The notes under the pieces: model-generated
The model's database searches: none
Told to the model about the DNA's origin: nothing
What the model saw: the letters and a program-made list of their open reading frames with translations, nothing else
Position numbers and translations under genes: made by a program
Source of the DNA: Scatolibacter rhodanostii
GTDB taxonomy: Bacteria > Bacillota > Clostridia > Oscillospirales > Acutalibacteraceae
Length of the DNA stretch: 64,000 nucleotides
Direction of reading: 5' to 3'
Assembly: GCF_900197595.1 (NCBI RefSeq)
Contig: NZ_FZLO01000002.1
Location: 186,001-250,000 of the forward strand
Part shown: positions 5,420 through 19,299 of the stretch, one piece after another
Layout of the letters: each line of letters begins with the position of its first letter
How positions within the stretch are numbered: position 1 is the first letter of the stretch

Positions 5420-8400
5420 ATTCTAATCCACGCTCCCGCGTGGGGAGTGACGGCGTACAGATAATTTTTTGGTATCTGCGCATTATTGTTTCAATCCACA
5501 CTCCCGCGTGGGGAGTGACATTGCGTGTTACAGCGTTTTGGTTTAATGCGCAAAATATTTCAATCCACACTCCCGCGTGGGGAGTGACATGATTGTTAGG
5601 TCGGCACGTTGCAGGACGTTCGAATTTCAATCCACACTCCCGCGTGGGGAGTGACGCAACGCACTGTAAGCGCCGTCTTTTGTTTTTAGCATTTCAATCC
5701 ACACTCCCGTGTGGGGAGTGACCTGTACTTCCGTTGTAAAAAACACCTTTTCTATATTTCAATCCACACTCCCGTGTGGGGAGTGACGCACATTTTGACG
5801 ACATTTTCCATGAGTAGTCAATTTCAATCCACACTCCCGTGTGGGGAGTGACTAAAATCGCCTATGATTGGGATGATTCCATTGTATTTCAATCCACACT
5901 CCCGTGTGGGGAGTGACTTATAAACATAGTAATTATTAAGTCTGTTGCGTTATTTCAATCCACACTCCCGTGTGGGGAGTGACTTTGGGAAGATTTCAAC
6001 GCTGCTTCGGTTCGATTATTTCAATCCACACTCCCGTGTGGGGAGTGACTCTTACTTTTGTAAGATAATAGTTATTTAAAGGGGATTTCAATCCACACTC
6101 CCGTGTGGGGAGTGACGTTGTTTGTGATTTGTTTGATTGAGTCAATTTCAATTTCAATCCACACTCCCGTGTGGGGAGTGACGTTTATTTCTCCTTTGTG
6201 TCGGTGATAACATCATCATTTCAATCCACACTCCCGTGTGGGGAGTGACCTTCGGTTCGATTGAAACAGCAGGAATCCATATTATTTCAATCCACACTCC
6301 CGTGTGGGGAGTGACCGATTACATCTTCTTTATGTGCTACACAGGGCTTAATTTCAATCCACACTCCCGTGTGGGGAGTGACAAGTTGGCCAAGCAACGC
6401 ACGCAGAAAGTTTTTGATTTCAATCCACACTCCCGTGTGGGGAGTGACCAGTTACCCACGCAGACGGCCATACCAGTATTAACATTTCAATCCACACTCC
6501 CGTGTGGGGAGTGACGGCGAGGGGTACAACCCTTACAGACGATAAAGGAGATTTCAATCCACACTCCCGTGTGGGGAGTGACCACTAAAGCTACTTACAG
6601 TTGATATTGTCTTATTATTTCAATCCACACTCCCGTGTGGGGAGTGACGGTTAAATATCCGCCATGTTTGCGGATTGTAGGTATTTCAATCCACACTCCC
6701 GTGTGGGGAGTGACCAAAATGTGCCTATAGGAATACCTATTACAAATATTTCAATCCACACTCCCGTGTGGGGAGTGACACAATGGTTTTCCTTATGAAA
6801 CTACACCAAACAGATTTCAATCCACACTCCCGTGTGGGGAGTGACCTTACAGCGAGCCAGTTCCCACCTATTCAGGCAACAATTTCAATCCACACTCCCG
6901 TGTGGGGAGTGACATTTTATTGATGTGGTGGCATGGAGGAACACAGCTATTTCAATCCACACTCCCGTGTGGGGAGTGACTTATACAGTGTATTAATAGA
7001 AGATAATTTTCCTATTTCAATCCACACTCCCGTGTGGGGAGTGACCAATTAGCGTATTTACTGTAAGTTCTTCTTCAATATTTCAATCCACACTCCCGTG
7101 TGGGGAGTGACCATTAATTCAGACAGCCTTTGTGAAAATGACATAAATTTCAATCCACACTCCCGTGTGGGGAGTGACAAAATCGCCCTTGGGTAGCTGC
7201 AGCACCGTCTAAATTTCAATCCACACTCCCGTGTGGGGAGTGACGCTCCTATGACAGACAGCGAGGAGGGCAATTCTTTATTTCAATCCACACTCCCGTG
7301 TGGGGAGTGACATCAAGCCGTCAGCCGTTTTCCAAAGGCCTAGAATATTTCAATCCACACTCCCGTGTGGGGAGTGACCGGGTGGAGAAATTGCTGATAT
7401 TAAGGCACAAATTATTTCAATCCACACTCCCGTGTGGGGAGTGACGTTTATCACCTATTGATTACAACGGGTTTCCTTATATTTCAATCCACACTCCCGT
7501 GTGGGGAGTGACTGCCATTACCTTAATCTCCTTTTCAAGTAATAAATATTTCAATCCACACTCCCGTGTGGGGAGTGACTTTTAATTCCGATTCTTGCTT
7601 CTTCAGTTTCACAATTTCAATCCACACTCCCGTGTGGGGAGTGACAGCCTAAACCAAGTAAGAAGCCTCCTAAAGGCAATATTTCAATCCACACTCCCGT
7701 GTGGGGAGTGACCACACAAAGAATTATGCTTGACGAGTTTCAAAGCATTTCAATCCACACTCCCGTGTGGGGAGTGACTTTTCAAAACAACCAAGCGTAT
7801 TTAGTTTGGTATATTTCAATCCACACTCCCGTGTGGGGAGTGACTTTTGATTCTGCTTTGACGTATGCAGAGCAGATATTTCAATCCACACTCCCGTGTG
7901 GGGAGTGACCCACCCTCAATATGTGTTTTTATTAGTCTTCCGGATTTCAATCCACACTCCCGTGTGGGGAGTGACACAAAATGTTCCTATTGGTGTGCAA
8001 ATTAATAATATTTCAATCCACACTCCCGTGTGGGGAGTGACCCTACTTCTTGTATCGCTTTAGCAAGCCAAAAAATTTCAATCCACACTCCCGTGTGGGG
8101 AGTGACAACATATCGGTTAATGGGTCGATGCAAAATGTCAATTTCAATCCACACTCCCGTGTGGGGAGTGACTTCAGATAGAAATTACGATAAAACAACA
8201 AAAGGTAATTTCAATCCACACTCCCGTGTGGGGAGTGACACATAATGCAAACATATTTTCATAGCATGTCTTTATTTCAATCCACACTCCCGTGTGGGGA
8301 GTGACTATTTTGAGCGTGGTTGCTTTAGATTCAAAGATTTATTTCAATCCACACTCCCGTGTGGGGAGTGACCCAAGAGATGGATTCAACGGCGGCGTCT

Positions 8401-11400
8401 TCAAATATTTCAATCCACACTCCCGTGTGGGGAGTGACCCGAAATTTACGCAGGAGCAAAACTAGAGCTTACTCATTTCAATCCACACTCCCGTGTGGGG
8501 AGTGACCAGCCTTTCTAACTCTAAATCCATTGCAGGAGGATATTTCAATCCACACTCCCGTGTGGGGAGTGACTGCTAGTGGCTAGGTTTGCTTTTAAAG
8601 CCAGCAAATTTCAATCCACACTCCCGTGTGGGGAGTGACAGCGGGTGTTTTAAAATCTGTTAGCGGTAAAACTATTTCAATCCACACTCCCGTGTGGGGA
8701 GTGACCCGAGAGAAACACGTCAGAAAAAAATTGGTACTATTTCAATCCACACTCCCGTGTGGGGAGTGACTTTGTCAGGCGTGCCGTTGTCGCCTTTTAC
8801 GGCCGATTTCAATCCACACTCCCGTGTGGGGAGTGACCTTGGCAGAGAAAACATTACTTTTATGTCATTTAATTTCAATCCACACTCCCGTGTGGGGAGT
8901 GACTCAGAGCCCTGTTGTTGGCAGGATTTTTGGGAACCATTTCAATCCACACTCCCGTGTGGGGAGTGACCCGGCAAGCCAAGCAATAACACGGGCTTCA
9001 ATCGCCATTTCAATCCACACTCCCGTGTGGGGAGTGACCTTGAGGACACCAGCGACACACTGATGTCTTTTTTATTTCAATCCACACTCCCGTGTGGGGA
9101 GTGACGCGTATCAGCCGAAAAAATAGATACCCATTTAACGATTTCAATCCACACTCCCGTGTGGGGAGTGACGTCTTGCCTAAATCCTGCCTGATTTCCA
9201 GTACCCGACATTTCAATCCACACTCCCGTGTGGGGAGTGACTAGAGCTGATAAAATTGTTGCTGCTGTTACTGACAATTTCAATCCACACTCCCGTGTGG
9301 GGAGTGACATAGTTGTCATCCATAACAATTGCAGTTTCTAACTATTTCAATCCACACTCCCGTGTGGGGAGTGACTTGCCTTGCTCCAGTGTGATTCTTT
9401 GGATAGTTTATTTCAATCCACACTCCCGTGTGGGGAGTGACTTACCATTGCCAACCCTATTTTGCTTGAGTTGAATTTCAATCCACACTCCCGTGTGGGG
9501 AGTGACGTTTTCGGGGACGGCACGGCAGAAGCCTTGCTGACATTTCAATCCACACTCCCGTGTGGGGAGTGACCGCACCGCTGACGTTTCGAAACTAGAC
9601 AAATACATTTCAATCCACACTCCCGTGTGGGGAGTGACCCCATGCTGATTTCATCATAGCAGCACTGCCTTATTTCAATCCACACTCCCGTGTGGGGAGT
9701 GACATCTTCGATACACCGCCAGCGTTCGTTACAAATATTTCAATCCACACTCCCGTGTGGGGAGTGACTGGGCACTGTGGAGAGCCTATGACAGGAGATG
9801 GAGATTTCAATCCACACTCCCGTGTGGGGAGTGACCTGTCCCACAGGGCAAGGCTTTTGTCACGCCTGATATTTCAATCCACACTCCCGTGTGGGGAGTG
9901 ACACCGAATGACAGTGCAGAGTTGAAATGGAATCCATTTCAATCCACACTCCCGTGTGGGGAGTGACTACATGAGCTGGGCGTGATGACCTCTGCCCGAG
10001 TATTTCAATCCACACTCCCGTGTGGGGAGTGACGGTTTATAACTTTATAGGTTATACAGGCACAAAAGATATTTCAATCCACACTCCCGTGTGGGGAGTG
10101 ACTAGATACTCTTCAAAAATATTTAAAAAGCGGAAGGATTTCAATCCACACTCCCGTGTGGGGAGTGACCGTGCAATCACAACGCAAAAGCAAAATGAAA
10201 ACAAATTTCAATCCACACTCCCGTGTGGGGAGTGACGATTAGTTTTTAATGACGATTATTATGACATCGATATTTCAATCCACACTCCCGTGTGGGGAGT
10301 GACATCTTTGCAATCACAATTAGATGTCGCTACCAGCATTTCAATCCACACTCCCGTGTGGGGAGTGACAATCCACACTTTGGAGTATGTGATAGCTGAT
10401 ACAATTTCAATCCACACTCCCGTGTGGGGAGTGACATGTAAATTGTCAACCTGCCAGTTGATAATTTACAGATTTCAATCCACACTCCCGTGTGGGGAGT
10501 GACTTACATCATTCACACACCACACAACCGCCGAGGGTATTTCAATCCACACTCCCGTGTGGGGAGTGACGATTTACATATCCGAGTTTGAGGAGGTGCG
10601 CACATATTTCAATCCACACTCCCGTGTGGGGAGTGACAAATTTAAGCATATCGCAACAACCTGTGGATATGCATTTCAATCCACACTCCCGTGTGGGGAG
10701 TGACAATTATTGCCCGGAGTGTGCGGAGCGGTACCGTAATTTCAATCCACACTCCCGTGTGGGGAGTGACGCTTTTGTGTAGCTTCTCCGTTTTGCCATT
10801 TTGTATTTCAATCCACACTCCCGTGTGGGGAGTGACCTACTGTACAAGTGGTTACAGGTGATATTGACACTATTTCAATCCACACTCCCGTGTGGGGAGT
10901 GACACAATGCCGGAGCTAATAAGCTCTCAATCAAAAATTTCAATCCACACTCCCGTGTGGGGAGTGACTTTCACTTCTTCTCAATGACCCTGTTGCAGCC
11001 AAAAATTTCAATCCACACTCCCGTGTGGGGAGTGACGCGGTTATTGTCACGCCGATACAAAACTCCTGTGATTTCAATCCACACTCCCGTGTGGGGAGTG
11101 ACGCAGCGGTCTTACCTTGGTGACATTGCTGTTGCATTTCAATCCACACTCCCGTGTGGGGAGTGACCGATACAGCACAGAATATGCGATTTAGGCCTAA
11201 AAATTTCAATCCACACTCCCGTGTGGGGAGTGACTGCAAAACAGCGTATTGATGATGCTGCCTACTGGATTTCAATCCACACTCCCGTGTGGGGAGTGAC
11301 CAAATTAGCAATGCCATGAAATATATTTTAGAGGGATTTCAATCCACACTCCCGTGTGGGGAGTGACGATTTTTCTAGGCTTGAAGAAAACAGCTTGGGC

Positions 11401-11704
11401 AAAATTTCAATCCACACTCCCGTGTGGGGAGTGACAAGTATCTGAAGCAATAATAAAATATCAAGAAAAAATTTCAATCCACACTCCCGTGTGGGGAGTG
11501 ACTTCTTGTTGCATCACAATAAATCCGATAGGACAAAATTTCAATCCACACTCCCGTGTGGGGAGTGACATTGCCGATTATTTGGTGGCGCAAGAAGGTG
11601 TTACCATTTCAATCCACACTCCCGTGTGGGGAGTGACACTTGCTGGGGTGTGAGTTCTTGCCCCTCTTCGACATTTCAATCCACACTCCCGTGTGGGGAG
11701 TGAC
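5420..11704 (-). CRISPR. Type I-C CRISPR array, 95 repeats and 94 spacers
   Basis: I counted 95 copies of a 32-bp repeat and 94 spacers of about 33-37 bp. Read in transcribed (minus) sense, the repeat begins GTCACTCCCCACACGG and ends GAGTGTGGATTGAAAT. The stem is ACTCCC/GGGAGT and the 3' end is the ATTGAAAT typical of type I-C. The copies from 5691 to 11704 appear identical. The four at 5420, 5488, 5557 and 5624 carry substitutions. The one at 5420 differs at four positions and the one at 5488 has G as its first plus-strand base. All four have GCG instead of GTG in the loop. Degeneracy at this end, plus the cas2-side leader, shows that the newest spacers are near 11.7 kb and the oldest near 5.4 kb. 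Confidence 0.99.
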
Positions 11705-11872
11705 AGCAAAAAGTTATAATTTTTGCTTGTAAAAATTTAATTTGTTTGTCATATATTTTTAATTTTTTGCTTGTTCAGGTGTAAACTTTCTTTTTAAAGA
11801 TTAATATCCATTTAGAATCAATCAAAAATTGGTGCGAGCCCTCTTGTAATTTATGTTTGCTTATCCTTCGCA
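11705..11872 (-). promoter_or_regulatory. CRISPR leader
   Basis: AT-rich 168-bp stretch between the cas2 stop and the first (newest) repeat. It contains an inverted repeat GTGCGA (11832-11837) / TCGCAC (11868-11873), about 30 bases apart, next to and overlapping the cas2 stop codon. I recall similar GTGCGA-type elements from other type I-C leaders. No clear -35/-10 pair could be picked. By position it should carry the array promoter and the spacer integration signals. Confidence 0.75.
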
Positions 11873-12163
11873 CTAAACCATTAATACACCTTCTGGTTCG
11901 TAACTTGTCTTTGCACCAAAATGTTCAACCTTCGTTTTGTAATTTTTTCCTAGATAATAAAAACGTAGGCTGTCCTTTTCTTGGTCGATGATACTGCAAA
12001 GTTTATGTTGAAGCATTTTGGCCTGTGCTGCATCTAACAGACACTCAAAAACACTATTTTGCACGCGCTGGCCATAATTGACACATTGCTTTGCAATTAG
12101 GCGCAGCCTTCGTCGTCCTGCTGAATCTACTGTATTGACATCATAAGAAATAAGTACCAGCAT
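11873..12163 (-). CDS. cas2: CRISPR-associated endonuclease Cas2 (type I-C)
   Basis: A 96-residue protein, the normal Cas2 length, that forms the Cas1-Cas2 integrase with the neighbouring Cas1. It starts MLVLISYDV, the ferredoxin-like first strand with the conserved Asp, and continues with AKQCVNYGQRVQNSVFECLL, a hallmark of the I-C Cas2 clade. A GTG three codons upstream would lengthen it, but AGGTGG lies five bases before the ATG at 12163, so that start is chosen. The gene follows cas1 with nine bases between the cas1 stop and the chosen ATG, and is last in the cas operon. Confidence 0.97.
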   Translation of the reverse strand: MLVLISYDVNTVDSAGRRRLRLIAKQCVNYGQRVQNSVFECLLDAAQAKMLQHKLCSIIDQEKDSLRFYYLGKNYKTKVEHFGAKTSYEPEGVLMV

Positions 12164-12172
12164 TTCAACCAC

Positions 12173-13204
12173 CTACTTCCACAAAAAAGGAGGATATCCA
12201 TCTAAATCATCTCGCAAATATCTTGCCAGCAATAAGGACTGTACGTACGGTACTAATCCCCATGGAATTTTCTCCTTCAAATAGGGATGCGTTATCGTTT
12301 CTCGTTTTCGCTCTTGCCACGCTTTAATCACGGTTTTTCGTCCCTCATCGGTCATTAGGGTCGCTCCACTCTCTCTATCCTGAAAATCTTTGGCTTTTAT
12401 GATTCTATTATTGATTAAGGTCAGCACAAAGCGATCTGCAAAGCAAGCACGCAATTCCTCCATCAAATCCAATGCCAAAGAGGACCGCCCCGGACGGTCA
12501 CGATGCATAAATCCAACGTAAGAATCTAGTCCTACAGATTCAAGTGCTGCCGCACAATCATTAGCCAGCAAAGAATAAACAAACGAAAGCATGGCGTTCA
12601 TTTTATCTAGGGGAGGTCGTCTGCTTCTTCCTGGAAAATAAAAATTTTCTTTATCATTTAATATCATTTCGTCTAATACTGAAAAATAAGTAGCCGCCGT
12701 TTCTCCTTCTAATCCTCGCAGTGATTCCAAAGTATCCACATTTTGAATTTTAGGCAGCATATCTTGCAATATTCCCGAAGCATTTTGAAGCTTTTCTTTA
12801 TCAATTCTCATGCCATGATCTCGAATAGTTCGCTCAACGCTCCACCTAGCGTTATACACTTTTCCAAATATCATGTTCCTCGCAATACGAGAACTGGCAC
12901 TAACGTCGTCAGCTATTCGGTATTGCGTTCTTCGCAGCAACACATTTCCATTTGATTTACCTACCGCTCGTGCCAAAAAGCGACCATTTGGTGTGCAAAG
13001 GCACAAGTTGATATTGTGCTTGGCACAGGCTCCCATTAGAGAGGGACTAGCACCCGGATACGTAAAAGTGACAATATTTTCTAACGTATGAAGAGGAAAT
13101 CTTGCCAATTCTTTCTTTTCCTGCTGCACAATCACATTTTCTCCGTCAAGGCTCAGATAAGCATCAGGCGTTGTCACAAAAAGCGTGTTGAGAAGTTTCC
13201 TCAT
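12173..13204 (-). CDS. cas1: CRISPR-associated endonuclease Cas1 (type I-C)
   Basis: A 343-residue integrase that inserts new spacers at the leader end. It begins MRKLLNTLFVTTPDAYLSLD, the usual I-C Cas1 N-terminus. The C-terminal helical domain carries LEGETAATYFSVLDEMI with the metal-binding Glu, GFMHRDRPGRSSLALDLMEE with the His, and the following acidic residues. The longer frame reaching 13288 is rejected for two reasons: the ATG at 13204 overlaps the cas4 stop as ATGA, and GGAGG lies seven bases upstream. Translation is therefore probably coupled to cas4. Confidence 0.97.
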   Translation of the reverse strand: MRKLLNTLFVTTPDAYLSLDGENVIVQQEKKELARFPLHTLENIVTFTYPGASPSLMGACAKHNINLCLCTPNGRFLARAVGKSNGNVLLRRTQYRIADDVSASSRIARNMIFGKVYNARWSVERTIRDHGMRIDKEKLQNASGILQDMLPKIQNVDTLESLRGLEGETAATYFSVLDEMILNDKENFYFPGRSRRPPLDKMNAMLSFVYSLLANDCAAALESVGLDSYVGFMHRDRPGRSSLALDLMEELRACFADRFVLTLINNRIIKAKDFQDRESGATLMTDEGRKTVIKAWQERKRETITHPYLKEKIPWGLVPYVQSLLLARYLRDDLDGYPPFLWK

Positions 13205-13869
13205 AGATTTTCCTCCATATAGTCTTTGACAGAACGAATCTTCATAAGAGCCGGCAAGCAAACCTCTTTTAAAGAACAGGCATTGCAAGCTTTTGTTCGT
13301 TTCACTTTTGGTGTATATCCACGCTCGTGCAGCTGGTGCATTTCTTGCAAGGCGTCTTCAATTTCCTGTCTAAGTTCCTTAGTGAATTCCACAGGAAAGC
13401 GGCGCTTTGTCTTACCATAAAACAAAGCACCACGCTCTATTTTGCAGCACAGCATTTCTTCCAGACACATGGCTTGTCCACAAAGCTGTGCTGCATCACA
13501 ATTGTTTTCTTTTGGTTCACCGTTTTTATATTCCACCGGAAAGGGAATCCACAAGCCGTCCAAATCGTGAATGGACACCCCTGCCTCATCACGATGAAAT
13601 TCCACAACATCACATTGACCTGAAACCCCTAAACGACTGGATTTCACACTGATTCCACGGGCTATGACCGTGTTACCTCGTCTTTCTCTGTATGTTTCAT
13701 CGTGAGCACGCTCATGCATAATTTGCCCATCGATGGTACGCAGATTTTCTGCCCAAAGATTCTCAACGTGAATCAAGGCCCACTGCCGCCGACAGAAAAG
13801 AAAATGCTGGAGTCCTGATAACTGCAGAAAATCTTCTTCCGGATAGCCGCTTATTCCATTTGCGTGCAT
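13201..13869 (-). CDS. cas4: CRISPR-associated exonuclease Cas4 (type I-C)
   Basis: A 222-residue RecB-like nuclease with an iron-sulfur cluster that trims prespacers and helps select the PAM side with Cas1-Cas2. The nuclease residues are seen at H52 (GQIMHERAH), D87 (GQCDVVEF) and E113-K115 (PVEYKNGE), followed by the AAQLCGQAMCLEEM helix. Cluster cysteines are C26 (LFCRRQW) and C195, C198 and C204 near the C-terminus. The ATG at 13869 lies inside the last codons of cas7 (19-base overlap), with GAAGGTG just upstream. The overlap points to coupled translation. Confidence 0.96.
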   Translation of the reverse strand: MHANGISGYPEEDFLQLSGLQHFLFCRRQWALIHVENLWAENLRTIDGQIMHERAHDETYRERRGNTVIARGISVKSSRLGVSGQCDVVEFHRDEAGVSIHDLDGLWIPFPVEYKNGEPKENNCDAAQLCGQAMCLEEMLCCKIERGALFYGKTKRRFPVEFTKELRQEIEDALQEMHQLHERGYTPKVKRTKACNACSLKEVCLPALMKIRSVKDYMEENL

Positions 13870-14741
13870 GTCACACCTTCCGGAATCGCTATTTCATCTA
13901 CCGAAATTTCATAGTCACTATAACTGCGTGCTATCTCGACATCTTCTTTGCGTTTAACACTGACCGTCTCAAACAGCTTATAGGCAGGCGCATTGCCAAA
14001 CTCTGAATCATGCTTGAAGATAATCAGCTTCCGAACCGCCATTTTTCCTCTGGCAGCAGAATGGTCATGCTCAAACATATTGAGAATAGCTTGCCACAGC
14101 AGTTCAATATCTTCTTCTGAAAAACCTGTTGTTTTACGGGCCAAATTCGCCGAAACATAGCCCTCACAACGATATAGACCGTAAGGCACAATATATTTAC
14201 GTCCCATTTCTGTTCCCTTTTTTTCAGCATCTTTTTCAGTCGTAATGGCAACACGAGTAATCGTTACCTCCTGTGGAATAACAGGGTCAACAGAGCGGGC
14301 AAAACCAAGCTGCACAGGGCCACGAACTTGTCCGCAATTAAGTGCCGCTTTCACAAAAGTCGTCATAACTGCCCCAAAAGTACGAATATCAAAGAAGTTG
14401 CTGCACATGAAGTCCCTAATTTTTTCGTCGATCTTCTCGTCTTTTTTCTTCTTATCTTTTATGGTTTTATCGTCTGCACCAACATACTCATAGGCTTCTA
14501 AATCACTACGATTAAGCGGCACTTTCTCTTTAATATAAATGCGATAACCGCTTTCTCCCTCTTTCACGGTCTCTACATAATTTCTGATTTTTCTTTTTAA
14601 GCAAACATCTGTTACTAACCCAAAATTGGTTTCGGGGTCGATGCGAGGCATATTGCCTGCGTCGGGGTCACCATTGGGATTTCCGTTCTCCACATCAAAC
14701 AAAATAACAAATTCATATCGATTTTTAATTGCTTCAGACAT
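13851..14741 (-). CDS. cas7: Type I-C Cascade backbone protein Cas7 (Csd2)
   Basis: A 296-residue RAMP protein that polymerises along the crRNA spacer to form the Cascade filament. MSEAIKNRYEFVILFDVENG followed by NPNGDPDAGNMPRIDP is the characteristic Csd2 N-terminus, and DIRTFGAVMT and GQVRGPVQLGFARSVDP are also typical. A longer frame reaches 14786. The ATG at 14741 fits the family start and has AAGGAGG nine bases upstream. It overlaps the end of cas8c by eight bases. The C-terminus runs into cas4. Confidence 0.96.
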   Translation of the reverse strand: MSEAIKNRYEFVILFDVENGNPNGDPDAGNMPRIDPETNFGLVTDVCLKRKIRNYVETVKEGESGYRIYIKEKVPLNRSDLEAYEYVGADDKTIKDKKKKDEKIDEKIRDFMCSNFFDIRTFGAVMTTFVKAALNCGQVRGPVQLGFARSVDPVIPQEVTITRVAITTEKDAEKKGTEMGRKYIVPYGLYRCEGYVSANLARKTTGFSEEDIELLWQAILNMFEHDHSAARGKMAVRKLIIFKHDSEFGNAPAYKLFETVSVKRKEDVEIARSYSDYEISVDEIAIPEGVTCTQME

Positions 14742-15117
14742 TTTCATTTTCCTCCTTGGTTGTTTGGTTTTCATTTTTCTTTTCATAGCGTTTTTGTGTC
14801 TGATGATAATAACCTAGTTGAAAAATACCTTGATCATATAAATTGTGGTGAACCGGATAGCTGTTTGTAATCATCGCCATCAACTCCCCCATTTTTTTAG
14901 ATAAGTTAATTTTAGAGCCAATTTCCAACTTGCGTACATGCTTTTCTGACAAACTGACAATAATGGGGAACACAACAGAGGGCGTTGCACAAGCCGAAGT
15001 AAAATATTTATCCTTGATGGTTGTAACGCCACTTGCTTTATTTTGAATTTCCTCCAACACGGCAAATAACCTTCCTAAAACATAAGGTTGATAGGTTGTT
15101 TGTTCATTTAGTTCCAC
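14734..15117 (-). CDS. cas11c: Cas11c small subunit, from an internal start within cas8c
   Basis: In type I-C systems the small Cascade subunit Cas11c is known to be made by internal translation of cas8c. Here a GTG (15115-15117) in the cas8c frame is preceded by AAGGAGG (15126-15132) at eight bases. The product would be 127 residues, starting (V/M)ELNEQTTYQPYVLGRLFAV, about the size expected for Cas11c. It would share its stop with Cas8c. The ribosome binding site and start are seen directly. Production of the separate protein is inferred from the family. Confidence 0.8.
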   Translation of the reverse strand: MELNEQTTYQPYVLGRLFAVLEEIQNKASGVTTIKDKYFTSACATPSVVFPIIVSLSEKHVRKLEIGSKINLSKKMGELMAMITNSYPVHHNLYDQGIFQLGYYHQTQKRYEKKNENQTTKEENENV

Positions 15118-16494
15118 TGTTAATACCTCCTTGTGATGGTCTATTCTATCTAAATAAGCTTTTATAATGGCCGCGCGCCCTCTAGTTATAGTGCGTTCTG
15201 CGCGAATTCTCAGCTGTGTTTGCTGATAGAGTGTCGACGGATAACGCCCCCCTGTCAAAATGGCTCTGAGCATATCGCCCGACATCTGTGGAGAAGCCAC
15301 TTTTTCTCTTGCATTTTCATTCACAGTTTCACGCAAAAGCGCCCACAAAGGGATATTTTTATAGGTATTTCGATTATCCGGCACCACTTCAATTCTTTTA
15401 TAATGATTTTGTATGTTACGAATCATGCTGCCAAAACTATCACAAAAAAAGAATCTTACTGAAAGTCTGGCGGCATTGGGTGCCAATGACAGCACATAAA
15501 ATCGATTTTTAGGGTTTACTGGACTCCCTTTCCAGTTGACAACTTCTCCATTTGCCACTTTGCCCATTAAGTCATCTAAGTCATTGTCGTCTACTGTGTC
15601 TTGATTTTCTGCTGTATTGTTTGCTCCGTACATATAAGCGCCAAAACACTCTTGGGGCGCTTGCTCCGCATCTTCTGACCAATAGACAAGTGTTGAATCA
15701 CCTATACGCTTAACGTGTTCTCGTTCTGATAAAAGGTGATTTAGAACAGTTGTATAAGCAAAGGCTGCATATTTGCTGACCGGGGCATTATAATTTTGCT
15801 CTCTGCCAAAAGAACAATAGGCCGGAGCATTGAACGACACCAACGCTGCCCCACTTGACTGTGCCCCAGCTACCCCTTTAACAGAAGGATGAGTTGCTGC
15901 TGGAACCCTGCTTTCTCCTGTAATTAAACAAGGCATTTTGTCGCCTGTTTCATCTTGATCATAATACTTTTGCCAAGCCGCCTTTATCTCTTTTTCTTCG
16001 AGCGGATAGTGATTCTGGAAGTAAAAAATAAGATTAACCGAACCCTCTAGCTCTTCTATATAGGGTAGAATAAGTTCATTTTCTCTTGCTTGTGAGGCAT
16101 CCCATGTATTAAAAAATAAGCAAATCGCCTTTGCGTAATCATTATCAAGCTCCGAAAGAATCTCTTGATGCAATTGTTTGGCAGCAGCGAAGCAATCCAA
16201 CACTCTTTGTGGCTTTTCCTTGTCTCCTATGCCTAAAAAATAGGCCGCATTTTCACATAAGAAATTGGAGCTGATTCCCACTGTTTTTTTCACTCGTGCC
16301 GGCAACTCCATTTCTCTTGGTACCATTCTCTTCCCATCTTTACTCTCTGTTTTGAGCGGAAGAATAGAGAGCAGTTGCCCCTCGCTGTCAATTTCGAGTG
16401 CATGCGTGACCTTGACTCTTTCCCAACCCGGTCTGGCAATTTTGCCTTTATCGGCAAGTGCTTCATAATAAGCCACCAGTGATTGCAGTATCAT
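14734..16494 (-). CDS. cas8c: Type I-C Cascade large subunit Cas8c (Csd1)
   Basis: A 586-residue protein that recognises the PAM and starts unwinding of target DNA within the I-C Cascade complex. It begins MILQSLVAYYEALADKGKIA, as Csd1 proteins do, and contains VLSLAPNAARLSVRFFF, a conserved Csd1 stretch. The start overlaps the cas5c stop by four bases (ATGA). The C-terminal 127 residues can also be made alone as Cas11c. Length and neighbours match an intact I-C system. Confidence 0.96.
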   Translation of the reverse strand: MILQSLVAYYEALADKGKIARPGWERVKVTHALEIDSEGQLLSILPLKTESKDGKRMVPREMELPARVKKTVGISSNFLCENAAYFLGIGDKEKPQRVLDCFAAAKQLHQEILSELDNDYAKAICLFFNTWDASQARENELILPYIEELEGSVNLIFYFQNHYPLEEKEIKAAWQKYYDQDETGDKMPCLITGESRVPAATHPSVKGVAGAQSSGAALVSFNAPAYCSFGREQNYNAPVSKYAAFAYTTVLNHLLSEREHVKRIGDSTLVYWSEDAEQAPQECFGAYMYGANNTAENQDTVDDNDLDDLMGKVANGEVVNWKGSPVNPKNRFYVLSLAPNAARLSVRFFFCDSFGSMIRNIQNHYKRIEVVPDNRNTYKNIPLWALLRETVNENAREKVASPQMSGDMLRAILTGGRYPSTLYQQTQLRIRAERTITRGRAAIIKAYLDRIDHHKEVLTVELNEQTTYQPYVLGRLFAVLEEIQNKASGVTTIKDKYFTSACATPSVVFPIIVSLSEKHVRKLEIGSKINLSKKMGELMAMITNSYPVHHNLYDQGIFQLGYYHQTQKRYEKKNENQTTKEENENV

Positions 16495-17144
16495 CGGTAC
16501 ACCTCACAATCTTGTAAATCCAGCACGCCCTTTTGCAGTTGTGCCCGAAAAAACAAAGGCGTTATATTTTGACTGTCACTGTAGTCCATATCGAAAAGCA
16601 TAAATCCTAGGTCGATGTCCTCATGGGGGTAGGCTGTTTCTATATCGCCGCCCTCCCATTTTTTAAAATTGACAGGGAATTCACGAGTACCAAAACAAGG
16701 TTGATGATAACATTGCCCTTTTTCCAATCGCCGTCGCATGATATCGCTGAACTTCCCCTCATTGTCGCTAGGTACTGCTTTATCAGTCATTTCAAAATGC
16801 GCTTCAATGACATAATGCACATTTTGCAAAATCATGGCTGCCCGTTGCTGAATATCATCAGAAGCACTAATAAAGATTGGTTTCTGGCTTCCTTCCATCA
16901 CACTTTTTGCGTTTCTTCCTGATAAAACAGATTTCACCTCATTGCGGCGAACATTGGTAAATTGAATCTTTTCCATCACATAAATTTTATCAATTATCCA
17001 TCTCATACCGGGGTGCCAATAAATTGCTTCTATAATTCCTCTAGCCGCTGAGGGTGTCATCACGTCATAGCTAACACGTTCTACTTTCATTTCAGGTCGA
17101 GAGAAGCACGCATAATCTCCCCAAACCTCTACCTTAACAGACAT
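16491..17144 (-). CDS. cas5c: Type I-C Cas5c (Cas5d), pre-crRNA processing protein, altered active site
   Basis: A 217-residue RAMP protein. In type I-C, which lacks Cas6, Cas5c cuts the repeat RNA and stays on the 5' handle. The N-terminus VKVEVWGDYACFSRPEMKVE and the segment QCYHQPCFGTREFPVNF are typical. In Bacillus halodurans Cas5d the catalytic residues are Y46, K116 and H117. The matching positions here are Y42 (EAIYWHP), K131 and F132 in NEGKFSDIMRRR. The His is thus replaced by Phe (codon TTC). It overlaps cas8c by four bases and follows cas3 closely. Confidence 0.95.
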   Translation of the reverse strand: MSVKVEVWGDYACFSRPEMKVERVSYDVMTPSAARGIIEAIYWHPGMRWIIDKIYVMEKIQFTNVRRNEVKSVLSGRNAKSVMEGSQKPIFISASDDIQQRAAMILQNVHYVIEAHFEMTDKAVPSDNEGKFSDIMRRRLEKGQCYHQPCFGTREFPVNFKKWEGGDIETAYPHEDIDLGFMLFDMDYSDSQNITPLFFRAQLQKGVLDLQDCEVYR

Positions 17145-17160
17145 TCTCTATCACCTCTCA

Positions 17161-19299
17161 TCAAACAATATGTTCTTGACCAAAATTGACTTCAAAAGAA
17201 AGACCGGTTTCTTCTTTATACAATAATATATCGCTGAGAACAGCAGAATCTATTCCTATTTTTTGAATTGCGCCCGAGCGAATCAACTCATTAAAATGCG
17301 GTTGATAAACGCTAACCGCATATTGTCCTGCCTTTCGCAGCAGTCCACGACTCATCATACCATTTTTCAGCAGATTGATAAGCGATTCTCCCTCTTTCCA
17401 AGGAACGTAAACCGTACAGCTGGCTTGCTCAATAAACTGGAATTCATTTGCCACTGTCTCAAACGGCATAGTCCCTTTTTGAATCTCACGTAGAATTTCT
17501 TTTTTATCCAAATCTTTTTCATCTTTCAGCCGATAGTACAAAAAATCAAAATAGGCTTGAATGGCTTCAGGTGAGGAAATATCCTCATAATCGCGCATAA
17601 TACGCTGTGCTGCTGCTACATTCTGCAAAATTTCTTGGGGCGGCTTTTGTTCACTTTCAAAAATATAGACTAATCCTTTTTCCGGTGCTCCTTCGCGATT
17701 ACAGCGCCCACCTGCTTGAATGATAGAATCAAGTCCCGCCAAAGCACGATAAACCACAGGAAAATCTACGTCTACCCCAGCTTCTACTAAGCTAGTTGAA
17801 ATGACTCTGCAAGGCTTGCCCAGTTTCAATCTGTCCCGAATTTCATCAAGAACTTCTCGTCTATGCATCGGACACATCATAGTAGAAAGATGAAAGCAAC
17901 CTTTTCCATCTAGCAAACCGTAAATCTTTTGAGCCTGCCTTTTATTATTGACAATACATAAAACCTGCTTCTGTTCATTTAAACGATACGCTACTTCTTC
18001 ATCAGACAGCGGACCCGCTTTTTTGTACTCTACTCGTTTAAAAAAAAGATACATGTCTGACACATTGGGGCAAAGCTCACGGCTTTCAAACTCGGGGAGC
18101 AATTCTGCAAACAAAGGGGTAAGTGCTGGTTGTGTCGCCGTACACATAATAGCCGAACATCCATAATTTTTGATCAGCTCGGCAACGGCATGAATACAAG
18201 GCTTGAGATAAGGGACTGGAAGCATCTGCGCTTCATCAAAAATAATTACGCTCTCTGCTATATTGTGTAGCTTTCGGCATCGTGAAGGCCGATTGGCATA
18301 TAAAGACTCAAAAAATTGCACTGATGTGGTAATAATAATAGGAGCATCCCAATTTTCGGTAGCAAGATAACGCTTGTCTGTAATTTTCCCGCTTTCATCT
18401 GTGGTATAATCCAAACTGGCATAGTGCGCCACGACGTTTTCCTCACCAAATATTTTTTCAAATACCTTTTGCGTTTGTTCAATGATACTCGTATAGGGAA
18501 TCACATAAATAACTCGCCGTAAACCGTTTTCAAGAGCATGCTTAAGAGCAAAAGCCATAGAGCTGACGGTTTTTCCACCACCTGTCGGCACAGTCAGGCT
18601 AAAAAGCCCTGCTTTTTGACCACTACCCTCTATCAACGCTTTTAGAATTTCACATCGCTTTTGATTTAAAAGCTTATCTGATTTCCACCAAGGGGCAATA
18701 AAGTCGTCTAACTGCATATCCAGTTTTTTTAAACCAGTTCCCTCTAAGCGCTTTTGAGGGTTGTCCTCCATAAAAGCCTCTGTGTCCAAATAATCAGCAT
18801 CTACCAAACAAGAATAAAGCATTCTGGTAAAGAAAAATCCTGTTTGAGCATTAGCCAAAAATCTTTTTGGTATCTCACAGGCCGAAACAGCCAGTTCATT
18901 CTGATAGACACGGTAGTCTTCTATGTCCTCCCCCACTTTGCGCAACATCTTGCCAGCAAAAGTAGGCTCATCTGAGGTTGCCAGCTTAGGGTTCCCTCCA
19001 TTTGGAAGCCCACCATGGTGTCCGGCAATGCAAAACCCTACCGGAACATTTCTTAATTCAAGGCAAGCCACCTGTGCGCCTGCCGTCGAATGGTCTACCC
19101 TTTCATTTGAACCTGTAATTCGCCGCTGAAATTTCAGCGAATATTTCCCTATGTCATGCAAAATCCCGCATAAATACCCTAAATCTGCCGCAGAAAAGGC
19201 TTTTGCAAACTGTGATGCTTTTTCAGCAGTAGCCGTCAAATGATTTAACACACTTTGTTCTCTTTGTCCGTCTTCACTTATATGTGCTAAATATTGCAT
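17161..19299 (-). CDS. cas3: CRISPR-associated helicase-nuclease Cas3 (HD plus helicase)
   Basis: A 712-residue protein that is recruited to Cascade-bound targets and degrades the DNA. The N-terminal HD nuclease shows H20, the H48-D49 pair (GILHDIGKY), H70 and H94-H95. The superfamily 2 helicase follows, with Walker A PTGGGKT (238-244), DEAQ at 355-358 in place of DEAH, TAT (387-389), and QAGGRCNREG as motif VI. All major motifs are intact, so the nuclease-helicase should work. It is the first gene of the cas operon, with GGAGG and GAGGA upstream of the ATG. Confidence 0.96.
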   Translation of the reverse strand: MQYLAHISEDGQREQSVLNHLTATAEKASQFAKAFSAADLGYLCGILHDIGKYSLKFQRRITGSNERVDHSTAGAQVACLELRNVPVGFCIAGHHGGLPNGGNPKLATSDEPTFAGKMLRKVGEDIEDYRVYQNELAVSACEIPKRFLANAQTGFFFTRMLYSCLVDADYLDTEAFMEDNPQKRLEGTGLKKLDMQLDDFIAPWWKSDKLLNQKRCEILKALIEGSGQKAGLFSLTVPTGGGKTVSSMAFALKHALENGLRRVIYVIPYTSIIEQTQKVFEKIFGEENVVAHYASLDYTTDESGKITDKRYLATENWDAPIIITTSVQFFESLYANRPSRCRKLHNIAESVIIFDEAQMLPVPYLKPCIHAVAELIKNYGCSAIMCTATQPALTPLFAELLPEFESRELCPNVSDMYLFFKRVEYKKAGPLSDEEVAYRLNEQKQVLCIVNNKRQAQKIYGLLDGKGCFHLSTMMCPMHRREVLDEIRDRLKLGKPCRVISTSLVEAGVDVDFPVVYRALAGLDSIIQAGGRCNREGAPEKGLVYIFESEQKPPQEILQNVAAAQRIMRDYEDISSPEAIQAYFDFLYYRLKDEKDLDKKEILREIQKGTMPFETVANEFQFIEQASCTVYVPWKEGESLINLLKNGMMSRGLLRKAGQYAVSVYQPHFNELIRSGAIQKIGIDSAVLSDILLYKEETGLSFEVNFGQEHIV

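Follow-up and report, generated by a model that had tools for sequence, protein, structure and literature searches.

Two spacers of a type I-C CRISPR array, spacers 9 and 13 (A9 and A13), overlap end to end by 13 identical bases, and we consider it very probable that both come from neighbouring sites of one phage minor-capsid gene and were acquired by ordinary uptake from a phage related to a prophage resident in the same genome. The array lies in a 64,000-nucleotide stretch of a Scatolibacter rhodanostii contig, referred to here as the window; other contigs of the genome are designated C3, C7, C9 and C12. The overlap itself is confirmed, exact over its 13 bases, and it places a TTC triplet (crRNA sense) beside the spacer 9 protospacer. 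When overlapping spacers are read against diverged prophages of the same genome, a protospacer-adjacent motif (PAM) becomes checkable, and part of a phage that has not been sequenced can be recognised where searches of phage collections fail.

The CRISPR-Cas Locus and Its Arrays

The window array is part of a type I-C locus (Table 1). Interference and adaptation genes stand in one minus-strand run, cas3-cas5-cas8c-cas7-cas4-cas1-cas2, and all seven score above the cut-offs of their own family models; cas1, cas5, cas7 and cas8c match I-C models, and every match to TIGR01863, TIGR01876 and TIGR02589 (Cas8c/Csd1, Cas5c and Cas7/Csd2) lies above the curated cut-off. Repeats of 32 bp and spacers of about 33-37 bp are typical of type I-C, and these are the sizes found here. 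Type I-C systems are not known to have a Cas6, the transcript being cut by Cas5c, and Cas6 is none of the seven genes in this cas run. The repeat reads ATTTCAATCCACACTCCCGTGTGGGGAGTGAC, from which four copies at the low-coordinate end deviate. The crRNA sense of the array is probably the minus strand, judging by the repeat orientation usual in type I-C and by the cas genes. The leader presumably lies in the stretch separating the array from cas2, as suggested by its position and by the degenerate repeats at the opposite end; with the leader at the high-coordinate end, low-numbered spacers would be the older ones.

A second array, on contig C3 (C3:267066-270752; L017:3067-6753), has 56 repeats and 55 spacers, designated B, with a repeat that differs at two bases. 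It contains exact duplicate spacers, B30 being identical to B32 and B31 to B33 (a duplicated two-spacer block) and B45 to B47. When either array was compared with its own genome, no perfect spacer match outside the arrays was listed.

Table 1. Coordinates in the window of the CRISPR-Cas locus and of the spacers discussed.
Feature	Position	Strand	Remarks
CRISPR array	5420..11704	-	95 repeats of 32 bp, 94 spacers of 33-37 bp
Spacer 7 (A7)	5853..5885	-	C9:3574-3606 (portal gene), 30/33, flank TTT, mismatches 3, 7 and 8 from PAM
Spacer 9 (A9)	5984..6017	-	Probably the older of the pair; prophage match C9:4803-4836, 24/34
13-nt overlap within spacer 9	6005..6017	-	PAM-proximal end of the spacer 9 protospacer
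Spacer 13 (A13)	6250..6283	-	Probably the newer of the pair; prophage match C9:4824-4857, 24/34
13-nt overlap within spacer 13	6250..6262	-	Identical 13 bases
GAA (TTC in crRNA sense)	6263..6265	-	Triplet beside the spacer 9 protospacer, preserved within spacer 13
Spacer 33 (A33)	7580..7613	-	C9:4828-4861, 28/34, flank TTC; same minor-capsid spot, opposite strand
Spacer 45 (A45)	8373..8406	-	C9:4009-4042, 32/34, flank TTT, mismatches 1 and 4 from PAM
Spacer 49 (A49)	8640..8673	-	13-nt overlap with B25 of the second array; recorded flank TTT
Presumed leader side	11705..11872	-	Stretch separating the array from cas2
cas2	11876..12163	-	TIGR01573
cas1 (type I-C)	12173..13288	-	TIGR03640
cas4	13201..13869	-	Family model match
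cas7/csd2	13851..14786	-	TIGR02589
cas8c/csd1	14734..16494	-	TIGR01863
cas5c	16491..17144	-	TIGR01876
cas3 (HD and helicase)	17161..19299	-	Family model match

Two Spacers That Overlap End to End

Spacer 9 ends, and spacer 13 begins, with the same 13 bases, CTTCGGTTCGATT, at exactly the coordinates given in an earlier sequence-only reading of the window, and in the 2.7 Mb genome this 13-mer has two sites only, those in the two spacers. That reading had also joined the two spacers and found GAA right after spacer 9, which in crRNA sense is TTC immediately 5' of the protospacer; the join bears this out. Its rough estimate that chance would produce such a match in fewer than one of 1000 cases is close to correct, though only for matches arranged end to end: under independent bases, 0.0004 end overlaps of exactly 13 nt are expected among 94 spacers, and the longest end overlap reached at least 13 in 2 of 2000 first-order Markov sets. 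A 13-mer common to two spacers at any place appeared in 242 of the 2000 simulated sets, or about 12%. The runner-up end-to-end overlap among the 94 spacers is 10 nt, between spacers 6 and 20 on opposite strands, and it gives no PAM information because the PAM-distal ends of both are what overlaps.

The Joined Sequence in Related Prophages

Searching the array against its own genome revealed a prophage at the start of contig C9, with genes for terminase, portal, minor capsid, scaffold, capsid, tail and lysin. The 55-base join aligns without gaps to C9:4803-4857 at 40/55 identities, distributed as 16/21 in the spacer-9-only part, 8/13 in the overlap and 16/21 in the spacer-13-only part, and the prophage, too, has GAA at the place predicted after the spacer 9 site. 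This site forms the end of the capsid domain (about residues 343-360) of a Phage_min_cap2 protein, which aligns to almost the full profile of Phage minor capsid protein 2 (Pfam PF06152).

The same protein (L015:3776-5377) differs from that family in an additional C-terminal Ntox50 toxin domain (PF15542, residues 438-528), making it a capsid-toxin fusion; a search for the minor-capsid protein in its own genome gave one match, on C9.

Relatives were collected through four prophage genes, among the matches listed, and the resulting scan comprised 212 loci and 2.78 Mb. The join reached at least 33/55 in 14 of these loci and the reversed join in none. At 34/55 or better there were 10 of the 212 loci, comprising seven distinct sequences including the prophage, and all of them at the same position of the minor-capsid gene. 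Four loci at 33/55 (L034, L148 and L227, which share one sequence, and L164) had their matches at positions elsewhere and were set aside as noise.

Read in frame, the join encodes an open peptide, WEDFNAASVRLKQQESI, and many homologues there resemble, by eye, ExFNxxSVKLKQQExxLKDF. Scored with a matrix of 66 homologue segments, the joined peptide attains 29.9 bits, compared with 28.8 for the prophage, and ranks first of 45,979 peptides made from joins of window spacers; compared directly with the prophage segment, it comes top of 106,468 (score 55; the best with neither spacer scored 32). Because the motif SVRLKQQE spans the junction, the peptide score is a test of the join itself. The proposal that both spacers were cut from one contiguous phage sequence is thus supported through relatives (the prophage alignment, the ten loci and the peptide), but the phage itself was not found.

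Searches for the Source Phage

The 55-base join had no credible match in 50,697 phage records and 72,556 plasmid records, and exact and back-translated patterns of the join and its parts returned no source in IMG/VR, where the peptide patterns VRLKQQESI and that of the B25/A49 peptide (see below) likewise had no match. The 42-base core was absent, at up to three mismatches, from 98 genomes, its own genome among them, and the back-translated VRLKQQESI pattern, run over 398 genomes of the family, matched the array itself and nothing else. A phage with both protospacers exact was found in none of the phage, plasmid, IMG/VR and family-genome searches. The sequence-only reading had proposed to look for a phage match over the whole length of the join, and neither the phage collections nor the IMG/VR patterns yielded one; with the source phage not found, the join is confirmed in relatives only.

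The same reading held that a phage match to one spacer that fails to continue into the other would speak against the join. Formally, MT835654.1 is such a match, since it covers query bases 22-50 and does not run on into spacer 9, but with an E-value of about 1 and 29/55 identities over the whole length we take it to be chance and reject it as a match to spacer 13. The one IMG/VR contig matched by the back-translated capsid peptide was also discarded: the match is on the other strand, and the phage region around it has neither a spacer match nor a join match. The A45 peptide had a sole match in IMG/VR, a record carrying the resident prophage's own gene.

Further Overlaps between Spacers

Spacer 49 shares 13 nt end to end with B25, a spacer of the second array, in the arrangement seen for A9 and A13; among the 146 distinct spacers, 0.0014 overlaps of at least 13 nt are expected. 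Joined, the two give 35/55 identities with the C9 prophage and 38/55 with another prophage, on contig C7. The C9 DNA match is weak: reversed joins elsewhere reach 34, the spacer-49-only part matches at 11/21, and spacer 49 alone matches C9 best at another place. The A49/B25 case rests on the peptide, AGVLKSVSGKTKINMDTG versus TGILKAVNGKSEINLDTG, which is the best of 49,926 controls (score 66; the best with neither spacer scored 30).

The triplet before spacer 49 is TTT in B25 and TTC in both resident prophages, where it corresponds to a glutamate codon. Either an escape variant was recorded, A49 going back to a phage with TTC and B25 to a variant whose PAM had changed, or the system tolerates TTT. 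The fuller form of the former, in which A49 came from a TTC phage and B25 later from a TTT variant (glutamate to lysine), 21 bp off on the same strand, so that a PAM escape stands recorded, is a tentative reading that we judge plausible but short of probable. If it were true, this record, together with a prophage lacking the PAM at its closest protospacers, would make both sides of the arms race readable without the phage, and should the TTT of A49/B25 record an escape, PAM tolerance in type I-C could be tested in this genome, whose host group is probably Oscillospirales, judging by the hosts of the prophage relatives.

A third, diverged overlap, between B9 and B4 (12/16), records TTC. We rejected a 9-nt overlap between A45 and B6: about 0.3 overlaps of at least 9 nt are expected among the 146 distinct spacers, the triplet is TCC, and the B6-only part is without a prophage match (both by eye). 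The 21-bp offset common to the two 13-nt pairs was also dismissed as a measuring rule, two cases being too few.

The Protospacer-Adjacent Motif

For the whole set of 149 spacers, we tallied the triplet 5' of the best match outside the arrays at 74% identity or more, which 19 spacers possess. TTC occurs seven times, TTT three times, CTC twice and seven other triplets once each; at the prophage TTC rate of 0.018, the binomial probability of 7/19 is 2e-8. Several of the 19 are probably chance, given that reversed window spacers yield 10 matches at 72% and two at 75%. At 70%, reversed window spacers show TTC in 0 of 30 cases, a weak control in which about half a TTC is expected. Spacer 54 (8971-9006) matches three Ca. 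Heliusvirales human-gut phages at 32-33/36 with the flanks TTC, CTC and TTC, the best of them at 33/36 with TTC. At the flank of spacer 13 itself, homologues have AAA, GAA and other triplets; with flanks so mixed, the PAM of spacer 13 is only predicted, and TTC would be the triplet expected beside its protospacer.

In excerpts from PMC7913775 and PMC8482600, TTC is the canonical type I-C PAM, an excerpt from PMC5071653 gives the PAM as GAA downstream, and the part of the PAM catalogue seen in PMC8482600 includes TTT for one I-C entry (Lachnoclostridium). The claim that the A9/A13 overlap reveals TTC as the PAM of this I-C locus stands in part. The pair, the prophage flank and TTC as the commonest flank of the 19 matches all agree with it, but one overlap alone cannot fix a PAM, as A49/B25 warns: this other overlap of the genome, just as long, records TTT.

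Origin of the Pair

In the source that we favour, a single phage related to the C9 prophage, the target would be the end of a minor-capsid gene of the Phage_min_cap2 family, and the spacer 9 protospacer would be followed by GAAACAGCAG... in the phage genome. The newer spacer, 13, would then hold the PAM of spacer 9 and the first 13 bases of its protospacer, both unchanged. Uptake, whether naive or primed, would have used adjacent TTC sites at a distance of 21 bp, in a phage group from which this cell has taken many spacers. Here, we infer the order of acquisition, the identity of the source and actual interference. In random draws of TTC sites over 19.7 kb, some pair of spacers overlaps on the same strand by 9 nt or more with P of 0.14, 0.24 and 0.46 for 15, 20 and 30 spacers, respectively; with many spacers from one phage group and a random choice of TTC sites, overlaps are thus unsurprising and call for no special mechanism. 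Since the PAM and 13 bases of spacer 9 stand unchanged inside spacer 13, the latter would not derive from a phage that had escaped from spacer 9 at this place.

The alternative that fares best is that the spacers come from two distinct, related phages, encountered on separate occasions, which happened to be identical over the 13 bases, with this region of the gene being resampled across the phage family. Variant sampling does occur, as the 12/16 overlap of B9 and B4 indicates, and spacer 33 derives from a different variant at this very spot, read on the opposite strand (28/34 to the prophage); however, the 13 shared bases are identical although the prophage differs at 5 of the 13, an identity unexpected between distant variants, and we regard two phages as an unlikely source that still deserves some weight. 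A little less likely again is primed acquisition, in which spacer 9, bound to the phage, would have steered the Cas machinery towards the nearby site of spacer 13. The newer spacer does adjoin the older one on the same strand, and priming has been reported for a type I-C system (excerpt from PMC5071653), but the intact PAM and first 13 bases of spacer 9 give no hint of an escape, for which priming would be required, and random choice of TTC sites already gives such overlaps fairly often; priming of the uptake of spacer 13 is possible and not needed. Coincidence between unrelated spacers, in whose favour one can cite 13-mers shared at any position in the simulated sets, has next to no probability left, because end-to-end geometry is so rare in those sets, because the spacer-9-only and spacer-13-only parts fall on the prophage precisely as far apart as predicted, which contradicts it, and because the joined peptide ranks first among controls.

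Spacers against the Resident Prophages

At 70% identity or more, 15 of the 149 spacers match the 19.7-kb C9 prophage region, compared with 0 of 149 reversed spacers and a mean of 0.3 for shuffled ones. The three closest matches, A45, A7 and B23 of the second array (30/34, flank GAT), are without TTC, which is kept in six of the other nine in a set of twelve matches. This is consistent with survival of the prophage through lack of the PAM at its near-matching protospacers, although three cases are few. Mismatches of A45, A7 and A33 cluster near the PAM (permutation probability 5e-6, computed post hoc for three chosen spacers); the value becomes 0.003 when B23, with PAM-distal mismatches, is added, and a weak 0.048 over 11 matches, from which the weak twelfth match, B7, is omitted. 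The verdict on the A9/A13 overlap is independent of this seed-clustering test.

The second prophage, on contig C7, has terminase, portal, Mu F-like and tape-measure genes. At C7 16,812-16,933 (L245), the B23 site is found again (30/34, flank GAT), as is the B25/A49 site (38/55).

Comparison with Known Systems

Overlapping I-C spacers with escape have already been published, and A9/A13 is a new, well-supported instance of such overlap. PMC5071653 describes overlapping I-C spacer pairs of Legionella pneumophila against the element LME-1, read as repeated challenge with PAM or seed escape; both there and here, I-C spacers fall on overlapping stretches of one mobile element. In Legionella the element has been identified and the target of the older spacer carries mutations, whereas here the source phage was not found and the older target has its TTC and 13 bases intact, with neither PAM nor seed mutated in A9/A13. 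In Sulfolobus, contigs were assembled from overlapping spacers to read the source and the PAM (excerpt from PMC3468723); those were many fresh laboratory spacers with a CCN PAM, unlike the natural array and the TTC described here, and in the same excerpt the authors call overlapping spacers rare in natural Sulfolobus loci.

The P. aeruginosa type I-C system (PMC7913775) and the catalogue in PMC8482600, as excerpted, share with the present locus the genes of the subtype and the dominant TTC flank; compared with P. aeruginosa, TTT (3/19) and CTC (2/19) flanks occur here besides TTC. Escape positions reported there are +2 and +3 from the PAM, and the mismatches of A45, A7 and A33 lie nearby.

Other Features of the Arrays

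A small array remnant with degenerate repeats lies at about 77,060-77,207 of contig C12 (L018:3061-3208), just upstream of a gene that we take to encode release factor 2. On the same contig, spacer 23 (6914-6948) has a host chromosomal match (C12:74007-74041, 27/35, flank CTC) beside what is presumably the gene for ribosomal protein S6; we assume that the site may belong to a host ssb resembling a phage ssb. Spacer 75 (10370-10403) starts with AATCCACACT, ten bases that are also in the repeat, which may be either chance or the mark of a spacer taken from repeat-like sequence. Spacer 76 (10436-10471) is, by eye, nearly its own reverse complement, and this near-palindrome may accordingly derive from dyad-symmetric DNA, for example that of a terminator or a binding site.
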